Assembly: GCA_016208305.1 (NCBI GenBank)
Contig: JACQYI010000006.1
Span: 372,001-436,000 of the forward strand
Origin: Oscillatoriophycideae cyanobacterium NC_groundwater_1537_Pr4_S-0.65um_50_18
Lineage (GTDB): Bacteria; Cyanobacteriota; Cyanobacteriia; Elainellales; Elainellaceae
Reading direction: 5' to 3'
DNA: 64,000 bases
The notes beneath the pieces are model-generated. The model searched no databases. It worked only from the letters and a program-made list of their open reading frames with translations, and had not been told where the DNA came from. Positions 22,404 to 27,864 of the stretch are shown here, in pieces. The position numbers were made by a program, and so were the translations under genes. Within the stretch, counting starts at the first letter, position 1, and each line of letters opens with the position of its first letter.

Positions 22404-24620
22404 GTGACAGACATTTCCTTCCGGAAAATTTTAGGGTTAAACCAGCAGTCGTATCAGCGGCTCAAGATTGCCTTGAGCCTAAATTTGCGTCGCCAGATTT
22501 TTATTGCAGTTTGTGATGACCTACTCCTGCGCGATCGCCTCTCTGCGCAACTTCAAGCAGAACTCGCTAAGGTGCCTCTGCCCCAGTTTGAGCAGGCCAG
22601 TGTCGTAGAAACACAAAATTTTCCTCGATTGGTGAGTCTGCACCTGGATCTAGATGACCCCAATCCGATCGTTCAAATTGCGCAGTGGATGGCACAGTCT
22701 CCTGCACCCCGAAGTGGCTGGCAGCCCGGAACAATGCCTGCCTTTCAATTTTTAGGCACAGAAAAGCTGACTCGGCAACCTGCCGCGATGCAGCGACTGT
22801 TTTTTACCCATCTTCAGAGTATTGAATACAATTTGCCGCTGCTAGAGTCAAGCGTGGTGCTATGGCTGACACAGCCTTGGTTTCGGGCTTTGCCGCAGTC
22901 GGCTCCAGAGTTTTGGCGCTGCCGCACAGGCGTGTTTGAGTTTATTGGTGACCCAACTCCGGTCATGGTAATCCTGCCGGAGCGGATTGATGTATTGCCT
23001 GCTGCTCAACCGATCGCCTCCACACCCATCTCCTCGACGCCAACCGCTTCAACTACTCCAAGCACCACGCCGCTTCTTGCAGATTCTCCAGCAACAGATT
23101 CTCCAGCAACAGATTCTCCGGCAACAGGCACAGAGGATACTACTTTTCAGGCTCCTGCCTCTGTTGAAAATCTCGCCCCTGAGAATCCTTGGGAACAGTT
23201 TGCCGACGATCTAGATTCAGCGTATTTGTTTGAGCCTTCGGCTGAGCCGCTGGAAAGTGATGCAGTAGAAAGTGAGCTACCGGAAAGCGAAGCAGCTCTA
23301 GAGGAAGCACCCGGTGAGATAGGTACAGAGTCTTTGGGTATTGCAAATCTTGCAGACCCTGGAGAACTGCAACTTGAAGACGGACAAAATCTATCGCTGA
23401 TTCAACAGATTGAGCAACTGCATCAACAGCAGGCTCCGGCAGAAACTTTGGCAGAGGCATATTGTGCGCTCGGCAACCTTTACCGCGATCGCGTTGAGCA
23501 AGGCGAAGGCACCTCAGAAGACATGGCGATCGCTATTCAGGCTTACGAGCAGGGATTGCAGTATTTACCAGAGCAAGAGCCGCTTTGGGTTGACATTCTC
23601 AACGATATTGGCAACCTGTACTGGATGCTGTCTCGCACCATGTCTTCTACCGAGGAAGCTCTGCCCTATTTGCAACGAGGGCTGCAAGCCTATCAATTTG
23701 CCCTGACAAAAATTGATCCCCAGCATCAGTTTCAAACCTATCCGATGGTGCAAAACAACCTGGGAGCCGCCTATGCTGACTTGGCAAGGCATCAAAATCC
23801 AGCCGATAGCCTGAGGCGATCGGTTGAAGCTTATTTGCAAGCCCTGCGCTATCGCACGCCTACGACCGATCCCATCCGCTATGCCTCTACCCAAAACAAC
23901 CTGGGCACAACCTACTGGAATTTGGCTCAGCACCAGCAGCCTGACGAAAACCTGAAGCAGGCGATCGTGGCCTACTCTGAAGCCCTACGCTTCTATGACC
24001 CAGCCCAAGAGCCGCTGAACTACGCCATGATTCAAAACAACTTGGGCACAGCCTATTGGAATCTAGCGCAGTATGAGCGTTCTAAAGACTGGCTATCGCT
24101 GTCGCTGGCTGCCTACCGCACAGCTCTAAAATATCGGACTCTAGAAGCAGTGCCCGCTGCCTTTGCCGCCAGCCAAAACAACCTAGGAACTGCCCTCTGG
24201 CATATGGCAAACCATGCGGATAATGTAGAAACGCGGCTGAGTTATTTGCAGGAGGCGATCGCTGCCTATGAATCTGCCCTCAAAGCCGTTGATGTCGCAG
24301 TTCGTCGCCCTAATACTCAGCTCAACTTTGACCAGGTTGCCACTCAAAACAACTTAGGATTAGCGCATTACCAAATTGCTACCGATACTCAGGCGCGCCT
24401 CAGCTCTGAGCAACAGTCTCTGCATTTGAGCGCTGCCCTTAGACATCATCTGCTGGCGCTGCAATCTTGGGCACAACAGCCGGAGCTACGGCAAACGGCT
24501 CTCAACCGTGTGGTCGAGACCCTACGGGCTTTCTACAATCAGTTGGGTCTAAAGGGTCAAAACCACGCGCTATCAATGGTGCCCGGTCAGCTCTTGCCAG
24601 AGATTTTGCCAAAGCTGTAG
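22404..24620 (+). CDS. Tetratricopeptide-repeat protein
   Basis: About 738 residues from the GTG at 22404 (VTDISFRKILGLNQQSY), which I prefer over an upstream TTG (22329) because the polar extension before it looks non-coding. The N-terminal ~190 residues (LRRQIFIAVCDDLLLRDRL...) look like a degenerate nucleotide-binding fold. A Ser/Thr/Pro-rich and acidic linker follows, including three exact or near-exact copies of the pentapeptide TDSPA. The C-terminal 420 residues carry TPR-type repeats of about 42 residues with the signature QNNLGTAYWNLAQ. Probably a cytosolic scaffold; partners unknown. The 3' end overlaps the convergent 138-aa gene by 119 nt. Confidence 0.8.
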   Translation: MTDISFRKILGLNQQSYQRLKIALSLNLRRQIFIAVCDDLLLRDRLSAQLQAELAKVPLPQFEQASVVETQNFPRLVSLHLDLDDPNPIVQIAQWMAQSPAPRSGWQPGTMPAFQFLGTEKLTRQPAAMQRLFFTHLQSIEYNLPLLESSVVLWLTQPWFRALPQSAPEFWRCRTGVFEFIGDPTPVMVILPERIDVLPAAQPIASTPISSTPTASTTPSTTPLLADSPATDSPATDSPATGTEDTTFQAPASVENLAPENPWEQFADDLDSAYLFEPSAEPLESDAVESELPESEAALEEAPGEIGTESLGIANLADPGELQLEDGQNLSLIQQIEQLHQQQAPAETLAEAYCALGNLYRDRVEQGEGTSEDMAIAIQAYEQGLQYLPEQEPLWVDILNDIGNLYWMLSRTMSSTEEALPYLQRGLQAYQFALTKIDPQHQFQTYPMVQNNLGAAYADLARHQNPADSLRRSVEAYLQALRYRTPTTDPIRYASTQNNLGTTYWNLAQHQQPDENLKQAIVAYSEALRFYDPAQEPLNYAMIQNNLGTAYWNLAQYERSKDWLSLSLAAYRTALKYRTLEAVPAAFAASQNNLGTALWHMANHADNVETRLSYLQEAIAAYESALKAVDVAVRRPNTQLNFDQVATQNNLGLAHYQIATDTQARLSSEQQSLHLSAALRHHLLALQSWAQQPELRQTALNRVVETLRAFYNQLGLKGQNHALSMVPGQLLPEILPKL
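23081..23125 (+). repeat. In-frame tandem repeat, three 15-bp units
   Basis: AGATTCTCCAGCAAC three times (one substitution in the third), encoding a TDSPA repeat in the linker of the TPR protein. Confidence 0.9.
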
Positions 24621-24918
24621 CCGCGCATTTAGAACCCGTCAAACCTGGACATCGCGTTTTGGGCTGATAATCCAAACACTCGATCGCGTCTTCAGTAAAA
24701 GCTTTGGTAGGATGTACCGCACATTTAAGACACTGCTCACCCGTAAAGTAAGCACAGCGATCGCAAGGAATTTGGTGTAGCCGTTTTAAATTGCGCCAGC
24801 CTTGCCGTAATGCGATCCACACCGTCCATAGCAAGCTACCCAAAATAGTCCAAATACACAGAGCAAAGACTGAACCAGCGATCGATGGATTCACCTGAAG
24901 TTGACCAAGGGTGAACAT
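24502..24918 (-). CDS. Cys-rich membrane-anchored protein, unknown function
   Basis: A 138-residue protein with one N-terminal membrane helix (about 12-36). A cysteine cluster CDRCAYFTGEQCLKCAVHP (about 52-70) and AIECLDYQP (about 78-86) follow, and the spacing suggests a bound metal or iron-sulfur site on the cytosolic face. The C-terminal 50 residues are low in conserved-looking features and overlap the 3' end of the convergent TPR gene by 119 nt. A shorter functional protein ending before the overlap is possible. I recognise the Cys pattern as one seen in cyanobacterial hypothetical proteins but know no function. Confidence 0.7.
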   Translation of the reverse strand: MFTLGQLQVNPSIAGSVFALCIWTILGSLLWTVWIALRQGWRNLKRLHQIPCDRCAYFTGEQCLKCAVHPTKAFTEDAIECLDYQPKTRCPGLTGSKCAATALAKSLARADRAPLIARGFDPLDPTDCRKPVGSRPHG

Positions 24919-24974: not shown

Positions 24975-25727
24975 CTACGGGTTGAGGCTTACCGCTGCTG
25001 TGAGAGGTACCTGAGGCAAATCTGCTACCAGACCTGCCCAAAAGCTGAGGATTCGTCTGCCGACAAGTTTGGGATGGCTGTAGTGAAAGAAATGCCGTCC
25101 GTCTGGACATTGCCAAAGCACATCCCGATCGCCCAGCCAATTTTGCCATTCTTGAAATTCGTGGGGCGAGATCACGCTGTCATCTTCGCTGCCGCAGACC
25201 AGCATTGGCGCTTTGCATCCGCCAGCTGCCACAGTGGCCTGATGAATCAACGTATGGGGCGACGGAGAACATCTCAGATCCGCTTCGAGAAGGCCAACAA
25301 TAGACTGAATTATGGCGCTAGATTGAAGCCCAAACAGGCTATGTGCCATTTGCCTGAGCACCATCGTGCGGCTACAGGGTAAGAAATTGAGATGGGCATG
25401 ATAAAAGGCTTGCCAATCGGCAGCAGGTTGGGCACCCACAGCCAGTAAGGTCAGAGAGGCCACCCGCTCTGGATAGCGACGCGCATAGAGCAATCCGACT
25501 AAACCACTGGTGCCGTGACCGATAAGGTGAACAGGATAGGGATGCGTTTTTATGTAATCATGCAGCAGAACGATCGCCATATCGAGCGAACTGGCTTCAT
25601 CTTGGGTTTGGCAATATTCCCAACGGGCGATCGAAGTTTGGCGAGATAAATAGCGCAGTAGAGGTTGGTCAAAGACTTTAAAGCTAGGGCTAACATTTAA
25701 CCAAAGTGCTTTGGGAAAATTAGACAT
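24975..25727 (-). CDS. isiC: IsiC-like alpha/beta-hydrolase fold protein
   Basis: Alpha/beta-hydrolase fold, about 250 residues from the ATG at 25727 (MSNFPKALWLNVSPSF); an upstream ATG at 25757 adds ten residues. The nucleophile elbow reads LIGHGTSGLVGLLYARRYPERV in two overlapping parts: the position that is Ser in GHSxGG is Gly here (G72), and a Ser comes two residues later. The acid (GSEDDSVISP) and a terminal His (DGRHFFHYSHP) are present. Position after isiA and isiB on the same strand matches isiC of the known isiABC operon. Either the chemistry is unusual or the protein is non-catalytic. Exact role of IsiC is not established. Confidence 0.8.
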   Translation of the reverse strand: MSNFPKALWLNVSPSFKVFDQPLLRYLSRQTSIARWEYCQTQDEASSLDMAIVLLHDYIKTHPYPVHLIGHGTSGLVGLLYARRYPERVASLTLLAVGAQPAADWQAFYHAHLNFLPCSRTMVLRQMAHSLFGLQSSAIIQSIVGLLEADLRCSPSPHTLIHQATVAAGGCKAPMLVCGSEDDSVISPHEFQEWQNWLGDRDVLWQCPDGRHFFHYSHPKLVGRRILSFWAGLVADLPQVPLTAAVSLNP

Positions 25728-25868
25728 GTAGGTGTTCCGATCGTTGAGCGGTGTCATCTTTTTGATTTGAATCTTTGACGGGCTATCAGCCCTGTTGCAG
25801 GAATGGGGCTATGAGAATGAATTTTTGGGCAGACGTCATACACCCAAAAAATTCATCGCCCTGCGAGA

Positions 25869-26381
25869 CTACAGCCTAAATTCAGTTTTGAGCTGCGTCG
25901 CCCAAAGCTTGACCCGCTCATCGGTGAGTTCAGCCTGGTTATCTTCATCGATCGCCAATCCCACAAACTTGCTGCCGCGCACCGCTTTAGACTCGCTAAA
26001 GTCATAGCCTTCAATAGGCCAATAGCCCACTGTCTGGCCTCCTAAAATCGAAATTTTTTCCTCCAAGATGCCCATCGCATCCTGAAAGTTATCGGCGTAG
26101 CCCATCTGATCGCCCGTACCAAAATAGGCGACTTTCTTGCCCTTGAAGTTGATCTGATCTAACTCTTCAAAGAAACCCTCCCAATCGCTTTGCAGTTCTC
26201 CAATGTTCCAAGTCGGACAGCCCACAATCAGGTAATCAAACTCTTCAAAGTCACTCGGTTGAACATCAGCGACATCAAACAGTTCCACAATATTGGAACC
26301 GCCGAGTTCTTTTTGAATCATTTCTGCGATCGTTTGAGTATTTCCCGTTTGCGTTCCAAAAAACAAACCAATCTTAGCCAT
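25869..26381 (-). CDS. isiB: Flavodoxin (iron-stress)
   Basis: Long-chain flavodoxin of 170 residues that replaces ferredoxin as electron acceptor of photosystem I under iron limitation. The FMN phosphate loop TQTGNT is at residues 10-15, the W-containing loop at PTWNIGELQSDWEG and the Y-loop at FGTGDQMGYADNF. The long-chain insertion (ILGGQTVGYWPIEGYDF) is present. AGAGGT lies 6 nt before the ATG as ribosome binding site. Third cistron of the isi transcription unit, 72 nt after the small zinc-ribbon gene and 112-142 nt before isiC. Confidence 0.97.
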   Translation of the reverse strand: MAKIGLFFGTQTGNTQTIAEMIQKELGGSNIVELFDVADVQPSDFEEFDYLIVGCPTWNIGELQSDWEGFFEELDQINFKGKKVAYFGTGDQMGYADNFQDAMGILEEKISILGGQTVGYWPIEGYDFSESKAVRGSKFVGLAIDEDNQAELTDERVKLWATQLKTEFRL

Positions 26382-26453
26382 AATGACCTCTTAGACCTCA
26401 AGATACAGGACAAGTTTTGAACACCGTTCGCTAAGGCTTAGCGAAATAAATAG

Positions 26454-26594
26454 CTAGATCTGAGAGGGGCGATCGAATTTAGGTTCACCCTCAGCCATTG
26501 GCATCTCTTGCCGACAGTAGAGGCAAAATCCATATATTCCACCCTTGCGAATGTGGCGCAGCAAGGGTTCAGAGCAGCATAGACATTGGCTCAT
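26454..26594 (-). CDS. 46-aa zinc-ribbon protein inside the isi operon
   Basis: Small ORF in the isiA-isiB gap. It translates to a protein beginning MSQCLCCSEPLLRHIRKGG and continuing IYGFCLYCRQEMPMAEG. The cysteines form C4-x2-C7-x16-C24-x2-C27, a compact zinc ribbon, followed by a short polar tail. The gap after the isiA stop is 88 nt and before isiB 72 nt, both on the same strand, so it should be co-transcribed and induced by iron starvation. Short ribbons of the LRHxRxxxxYxFCxxCxQEMP type occur in other cyanobacteria as far as I recall, without known function. No strong ribosome binding site. Too short for usual gene calling. Confidence 0.7.
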   Translation of the reverse strand: MSQCLCCSEPLLRHIRKGGIYGFCLYCRQEMPMAEGEPKFDRPSQI

Positions 26595-26682
26595 ATTGTG
26601 TTTCGAGCGGAAATTAAATCACCTCTTGGCAGCTCTCCGCTTTTCATGGGGCGCAATATTCGATCGCACCCCAGCTCAAACT

Positions 26683-27717
26683 TTAAGCCTCGTCACCCAC
26701 CGCATTTAAGGCTTTCTCAACGCGCTTAAAGTCAAATCCCATAGCGCGGAGGGCATGCCAGAGATGCCCCTGCAAGAAAAAGAAGGCCAGGAAAAAGTGA
26801 GCATTTGCTAACCAGGCACGCGCCGTATGACCACCCCCCGGCAGATCGACCGTATCGGCAAAATAAGGGGCAATTCCCAACTTGACCTCTAGCGGCGCAC
26901 CATAAAATTCAACAGGATAGGCCAGGGTATTGACTGCGCAAAAATAGGCTGCGACAAATCCTGCCAAGGCAATGCCACCCAACGAGTAGGATAGGATCGC
27001 TTCACCTGAGAAAATCAAAACTTTCTTCGCCCAATTCAGCGGCGGCACCAGAATATGCCAAACCCCGCCTGCAATCAGCATAACGCCAACATAAATATGA
27101 CCGCCCACCAAGTCTTCTAGGTTATCAACGCTGGCAAAGTGAGTTTGATACCCATAGATGATGGCTGGGTTGAGCGTGGGTTCAGCTACGACTCGGACGG
27201 TTTGAGAGACTGCATCATATAAACCACCCCAAATCATGGCTTTCGCCACGAGCAAGAGTGCGCCTGCCCCCAAAAAGAGCAAATGATGACCCAAAATTAA
27301 GCCGAGCTTTTTAGGATCATTCCATTCAAAGTGAAACTTTTTAGCGGCACCTGTAGCCGTTCGCAGATCTTCAGGAGCTTTGACCGTGTGAAATAGAGCA
27401 CCTGCCCCTAACACAGCCGATGAGACGAGGTGAACCACACCCACCACAAAAAAGGGATAGGTATCAACAACCTGGCTGCCCTGACCCATTCCCAACCCCA
27501 ATGTTGCCAAATGAGGCAGCAAGATTAGCCCTTGCTCACCCATTGGCAGATCTGGAGAATAGCGGGAAAGCCCAAAAAGCGGGAAAGCACCTGCCCAAAA
27601 GGTGATCAAGGCTGCTTGGGCAACATGCGCTGCAATAAATAAACCAGAGAGTTGAGCAAACCGGGCATTGCCCGCCCACCAGTCATATTTGACCTGCGGA
27701 TTATCGTAAGTCTGCAT
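26683..27717 (-). CDS. isiA: Iron-stress-induced chlorophyll-binding protein IsiA (CP43')
   Basis: Six-helix chlorophyll antenna protein that forms rings around photosystem I under iron limitation and quenches excess energy. I start at the ATG at 27717 ([19 protein letters not shown]), preceded by GGAG at 9 nt; an upstream in-frame frame to 27792 adds non-family sequence. This gives 344 residues, the normal IsiA length, without the large lumenal loop of CP43 and without a fused PsaL domain. Conserved histidines for chlorophyll appear in each helix (e.g. [45 protein letters not shown]). First gene of the isi unit; a Fur-like palindrome lies 125 nt upstream. Confidence 0.96.
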
Positions 27718-27841: not shown

Positions 27842-27864
27842 TTATTGAGAATTATCTTCAATAA
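27842..27864 (-). promoter_or_regulatory. Fur-like operator of the isi operon
   Basis: TTATTGA-GAATTATCT-TCAATAA, a perfect 7-bp inverted repeat. The inner TGAGAATTATCTTCA (27846-27860) matches the 7-1-7 Fur pattern TGATAAT-N-ATTATCA at 11 of 14 positions. Its place 125 nt before the isiA ATG fits known Fur/FurA control of isiA. Confidence 0.65.

Follow-up and report, generated by a model that had tools for sequence, protein, structure and literature searches.

The isi operon is described as isiA, isiB, isiC and isiD in the accessible text of PMC8635728. For iron-starved Synechocystis 6803, PMC3516471 gives isiA, isiB, sll0249 and ssl0461. Among small proteins, a close described case is NblD (NsiR6), which is 66 aa long, is induced by starvation and carries two pairs of Cys (available sections of PMC5126843 and PMC7760959). 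Small cyanobacterial starvation proteins such as NblD act on partners, according to the sections of PMC7760959 at hand.

The window, by which we mean the whole 64,000-nt stretch of contig JACQYI010000006.1 that was analysed, shares with the isiAB(CD) operon the order isiA, isiB and an isiC-like gene on one strand, the antisense RNA IsrR, and a small gene after isiC (Table 1). It differs in having a zinc-ribbon gene, here called ORF46, between isiA and isiB, whereas PMC8635728, in its accessible text, names none there. The sequence-only reading had noted that the isi operon is usually described as isiA-isiB-isiC, without a zinc ribbon, and this agrees with what we found: in the accessible literature, which includes PMC11221513, PMC12090762, PMC8670252, PMC3610870 and PMC12589917 and leaves most subscription papers out of reach, neither a zinc ribbon nor a small ORF between isiA and isiB is mentioned.

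Table 1. Features of the isi locus in the window.
Feature	Position	Strand	Evidence
ORF46, 46-aa zinc-ribbon gene	26454..26594	(-)	Translation; family members in own genome and relatives; syntenic copies; predicted fold
First knuckle of ORF46, C4-L-C-C7	26574..26585	(-)	Sequence
Second knuckle of ORF46, C24-L-Y-C27, then R-Q-E-M-P	26514..26525	(-)	Sequence
isiA	26683..27717	(-)	TIGR03041, 492.6 bits (cut-off 335)
isiB, long-chain FldA flavodoxin	25869..26381	(-)	NF006736, 256.1 bits (cut-off 202); TIGR01752, 235.2 bits
isiC-like alpha/beta hydrolase	24975..25757	(-)	Pfam Abhydrolase_6 and Abhydrolase_1, slightly above cut-off
IsrR antisense RNA within isiA	27147..27324	(+)	Rfam RF01419, 108.3 bits, E 5.9e-22 (gathering score 52)
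Stem-loop in isiA-ORF46 spacer, 10 bp, no T run	26648..26672	(-)	Folding of 26590-26690 compared with 200 shuffles (z -3.2)
Palindrome 5' of isiA, Fur-box-like by eye only	27842..27864		
Small Cys protein with likely membrane segment, 3' of isiC	24502..24918	(-)	Cys motif IPCDRCAYFTGEQCLKCAVHP

The gap between isiA and isiB had been read as coding for a 46-aa protein with a C-x2-C-x16-C-x2-C motif, in the same orientation as its neighbors, and both coordinates and translation agree with this. ORF46 starts with an ATG at 26594, its stop ends at 26454, and its product is MSQCLCCSEPLLRHIRKGGIYGFCLYCRQEMPMAEGEPKFDRPSQI. The motif is made up of C4-C7 and C24-C27, with an extra Cys at C6. On the minus strand the genes follow in the order isiA, ORF46, isiB and isiC-like hydrolase; the spacer between isiA and ORF46 (26595-26682) is 88 nt and the one between ORF46 and isiB (26382-26453) is 72 nt, as had been noted. 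The start of isiA at ATG 27717 is our choice, the mechanical ORF beginning at GTG 27792.

We regard the locus as a regular isi locus because IsrR was found inside isiA. With isiA, isiB, the isiC-like gene and IsrR, all the expected members are there, in order, and a relative of the isiC-like gene lies 3' of isiB in many loci. The small Cys protein after isiC possibly fills the isiD/ssl0461 slot. Of the 135 fetched loci with isiC, 48 have a same-strand relative of it no more than 500 nt past that gene; the loci of this count partly overlap, and the first match per locus was considered.

From the 88- and 72-nt spacers we expect co-expression; a simple scan of the isiA-isiB interval called no terminator, and no promoter on the minus strand. 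ORF46 would be co-transcribed from the isiA promoter and hence would be made under iron shortage. Against this, the strong stem-loop in the upstream spacer could separate ORF46 from isiA; it may be where the isi mRNA is processed, or a partial termination element.

ORF46 is not a chance open frame, since relatives in other genomes match it at E values down to 4.2e-13 (E per genome). Nor is it unique to the isi locus, as paralogues occur both in relatives and in its own genome. The latter holds six further matches to ORF46 at E≤10, four of them at E≤0.001, and 34 of 40 relatives carry a family member at E≤0.001. Using a profile of 21 isi-linked proteins, we found a member at E≤1e-6 in at least 210 of the 388 genomes of the class, a lower bound, since scoring covered no more than 17 candidates in each genome. 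The small zinc-ribbon family is thus widespread in cyanobacteria, multi-copy and not isi-specific. Homologues with conserved Cys, for which a search had been proposed, therefore exist elsewhere, but a specificity to iron starvation finds no support: the family is present in multiple copies in many other places, and the copy linked to isi is an optional one that has in some cases decayed. The roles suggested in the sequence-only reading, namely translation control, assembly with IsiA rings and metal buffering, are conjectural.

Most members share C-x2-C, LLRH, W-[FY]-C-x2-C and QEMP, and the signature of this unnamed family can be written C-x2-C ... YW[FY]C-x2-C-[RWH]-Q-E-M-P. ORF46 has both C-x2-C knuckles, 16 residues apart, the LLRH motif and C-x2-C-[RWH]-Q-E-M-P. 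It departs from the family in reading Y-G-F-C where nearly all aligned rows have W, the G being shared only by the isiB-linked copy L032/L085, and in lying inside an isi locus, while most members found lie outside. At E≤1, ORF46 matched no family in Pfam, NCBIfam or PHROG, and three other members gave only below-cut-off matches to curated models, the kinase part of a fusion aside. The family is without a curated model and without an assigned function. A profile scan of viral contigs, made through one peptide pattern, gave 30 matching stretches, among which no relative was confirmed. On contig C78 of the genome that carries ORF46, one of the further own-genome matches, a family zinc ribbon, stands N-terminal to a HisKA/HATPase histidine kinase (L005:1480-3096).

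We searched for isiA and isiB in the 388 class genomes and found isiB at E≤1e-50 in 171 of them. Among the matches listed, 140 isiB loci and then nine more were examined outside the window, using an HMM built from 30 seeds from loci L001-L036, the window's ORF46 included, at E<0.05. A member was present in 23 of the 140 loci, always at the isi position, and in none of the nine, so that among the matches listed the proposed synteny, a member beside isiB and/or isiA, holds in 23 of 149 other isiB loci, or in 21 of 149 with the decayed copies L039 and L114 set aside. No member lay away from the isi position in the 748,158 bases of the 140 loci. The 23 holder loci among the matches listed come from 23 genomes in 12 families; in 21 the gene is directly upstream of isiB, and in two (L067 and L068) it comes after isiA in an isiB-isiA order. 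ORF46 itself lies after isiA and upstream of isiB. Its isi location is not chance, and we hold it as practically certain that it is a real gene in synteny with isi.

Possession of the gene is nevertheless optional. Of the canonical isiA-to-isiB loci among the matches listed, 13 of 57 have a member, two of them decayed, and 44 have none; of the other isiB loci among the matches listed, most without a close isiA beside isiB, 10 of 83 have one. Three-frame translation of those canonical gaps between isiA and isiB that are 170-620 nt long and had no match gave no clear remnant by eye. In a separate scan of 80 named isiA loci, a member follows isiA at a distance of up to about 0.7 kb in seven (four Microcystis, Spirulina subsalsa FACHB-351, Phormidium sp. 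OSCR and Argonema antarcticum) and one more at 1.1-1.3 kb, although at least three of the 80 (L184, L191 and L196) end no more than 130 nt after isiA and are unable to show such a gene. Where the fetched stretch holds isiA without isiB, a ribbon was found in 1 of 19 regions (L339), some of these stretches being short. In two loci, L312 and L339, isiA, a ribbon and isiC are consecutive, and isiB lies at another place of the genome. Genome G193 carries isiA twice, and a ribbon follows both copies (the second copy is L313).

The same patchiness is seen among close relatives. In Microcystis, 6 of 12 species have an isi-linked copy, counted regardless of whether isiA and isiB are present in the remaining six. 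In a Synechocystis-like genus the copy is found in three of five genomes; in a fourth, isiA and isiB stand 98 nt apart, with no copy. A Microcystis copy measures 52 aa, and one from a Synechocystis relative 59 aa. The label reflects an exact match of a published NblD primer in two genomes of this genus, which we therefore assign to Synechocystis or near kin; none of the five is regarded as PCC 6803, as a second published primer of that strain has no exact match in them (one mismatch in G223, two in G262). In G002 and G003, the two of three other genomes of ORF46's genus that were read here, 130 nt separate isiA from isiB and no such gene is present. Decay is visible too: L039 (E 0.006, a weak match) has lost its first half and kept its second, L114 has lost two Cys, and L085 and L082 one each. 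Since many genomes lack the copy or carry a decayed one, we regard ORF46 as an accessory and not a core part. In Oscillatoria sp. S11.Bin022, a ribbon-like frame after isiC (L185:4280-4639) has its knuckles split by an in-frame insert of about 35-40 residues.

In the 21 isi-linked proteins, a set that excludes the decayed L039 and L114 and the near-copies L096 and L122, every member has C24 and C27, and at least 90% keep C4 and C7. The non-Cys positions L12, W22, R28 and P32 are likewise kept in at least 90%, and their conservation suggests a binding surface. Across nine pairs of isi-linked copies from two lineages, whole-gene pN/pS was 0.07-0.38 (Fisher p 0.001-0.023, uncorrected, with pairs that are not independent), well below one in both lineages. 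In the ribbon core it was 0-0.16 in the eight of nine pairs where it was computable, and in the tail 0.23-0.60 in eight pairs. The isi-linked copies of these two lineages are under purifying selection, in answer to the sequence-only reading, which had singled out the ratio of synonymous to non-synonymous change. The Microcystis copies show six non-synonymous and no synonymous changes, five of the six in the tail, too few to judge. A C-terminal W-I-x-I-[PL] motif, absent from ORF46, is common to three copies (L042, L056 and L059) and the remnant L039 and looks as if it were a second binding element.

For the descent of these copies we built a tree from 89 members, 30 isi-linked and 59 not, of which 81 were aligned; after five more were dropped as near-duplicates, a kinase fusion or a degenerate copy, 76 rows and 42 columns remained. 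The isi label changes 7 times on this tree, compared with 22.5 times in shuffles (0 of 500 as low, a result helped by near-copies), so isi-linked copies cluster. Of the 73 inner branches 44 are unresolved, and ORF46, on a long and unresolved branch, has non-isi paralogues as its closest neighbors. It may stem from the same insertion as other isi-linked copies or from a separate recruitment. With the isi-linked profile, too, many non-isi members come out among the top matches, and an isi-specific function is for this reason not readable from the ribbon sequence.

These data bear on whether ORF46 has any isi-specific function at all. It could instead be a passenger, in which case a multi-copy family would drift in and out of the isi locus and be kept there awhile by a strong promoter. 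The patchy presence, the decayed copies and the absence from two same-genus relatives are consistent with this, as are the several paralogues per genome and the paralogues nearest to ORF46 on the tree. However, among the matches listed all 23 members in 748 kb stand at the isi position, across 12 families; isi-linked copies cluster and are under purifying selection; and the ribbon is retained between isiA and isiC where isiB has moved elsewhere. On balance we consider a mere passenger unlikely.

The AlphaFold2 model of ORF46, based on nine sequences, has a mean pLDDT of 77 and a pTM of 0.48, with block means of 84-91 over residues 1-30. Predicted strands at 12-16, 19-24 and 29-32 give a three-stranded zinc ribbon with a loose tail, and this prediction agrees with the zinc ribbon read from the motif. 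The protein would fold around one zinc via C4, C7, C24 and C27, at no iron cost. Foldseek with this model gave nothing at E≤0.001. In a VIA-align comparison with the PDB, the N-terminal ribbons of RNA polymerase II subunit 9 were nearest, with Z up to 4.7 (for 5flm_I, Z 4.5 and rmsd 2.2 over 37 residues), and ZifS of Thermus (8yoz) reached Z 3.6. The predicted model is thus similar to RPB9-type ribbons and ZifS, but no sequence relation to them was found; a search of solved structures by sequence also gave no relation, its best hits being short matches to Cys motifs. The resemblance may come from a common small fold only.

The nearness to polymerase ribbons raises the idea that ORF46 binds nucleic acid, RNA polymerase or the ribosome and adjusts expression, possible targets being the isi mRNA and other iron-starvation genes. 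The surroundings of the non-isi paralogues speak to this as well. We chose neighbors by ORF length (at least 80 aa), giving 47 upstream and 51 downstream, of which 40 and 43 were scanned after dropping repeated Microcystis neighbors, seven on the upstream side and six of these on the downstream side, along with the short ones of L292 and L008. Upstream, 8 of 40 were GNAT acetyltransferases, 5 response regulators and 4 MgtC; downstream, 5 of 43 were cNMP-binding and 4 were Crp-type regulators. The response regulators, the Crp-type regulators and one histidine-kinase fusion would suit a regulatory ribbon. Yet taken together the paralogues adjoin unrelated genes, so that no shared partner is visible. 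The structural matches stay under Z 5, with none from Foldseek at the threshold used, and so possibly reflect just a common small ribbon, and the basic R16-K17 of ORF46 is missing from most isi-linked copies. A nucleic-acid role is a secondary option that we doubt.

Two further alternatives concern the metal. ORF46 could be a zinc buffer or donor that limits mis-metallation under iron scarcity, in keeping with its four conserved Cys and the strong expression that would be expected from the isi promoter. Each protein offers one site, however, and several non-Cys residues are nearly as conserved as the Cys, which a plain buffer would not need; we think a buffer improbable. Alternatively, it could be an electron carrier of the rubredoxin type, with iron as its metal. 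Many family members have a second knuckle of the form W-x-C-P-x-C, which we take to resemble that of rubredoxin, but no Pfam family, rubredoxin included, matches ORF46 at E≤1 (HMMER filters can drop weak matches), and an extra iron protein would be odd within an iron-sparing operon. An iron site is highly improbable.

We think a protein-binding adaptor is the likeliest of the mechanisms considered, followed, in roughly this order, by nucleic-acid binding, the passenger, the zinc buffer and the iron site. Our main reading, to which we give a probability of roughly 0.4, is that ORF46 is a genuine small-protein gene of a widespread zinc-ribbon family, an optional third product of the isi locus that acts as such an adaptor. 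We favor it because non-Cys residues are kept and because small proteins like NblD act on partners. The adaptor would fine-tune the iron-starvation remodelling of the photosynthetic machinery, acting on the IsiA/photosystem I antenna or on flavodoxin. NblD, likewise a small cyanobacterial protein with two Cys pairs, is a starvation-response protein according to the accessible sections of the papers on it, and we take it as a model of how such an adaptor might work. ORF46 is not itself an NblD: the spacing in NblD, C9-x2-C12 ... C40-x7-C48, is unlike that of ORF46, and NblD scores 2.4 bits against the family HMM and belongs to a different family.

It is tempting to speculate, although we find it rather doubtful, that many cyanobacteria have in their isi operon an overlooked gene for a dedicated zinc protein. 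By binding IsiA, photosystem I or flavodoxin, this protein would regulate how photosynthesis is switched to its iron-sparing form, by analogy with NblD in phycobilisome breakdown. If so, its optional presence would mark two modes of the iron-starvation response, with and without this factor. A selected small protein in the isi operon of bloom-forming Microcystis and of Synechocystis relatives is a directly testable lead, and ORF46 draws attention to a large family of zinc ribbons, as yet unnamed, of which genomes carry several copies.
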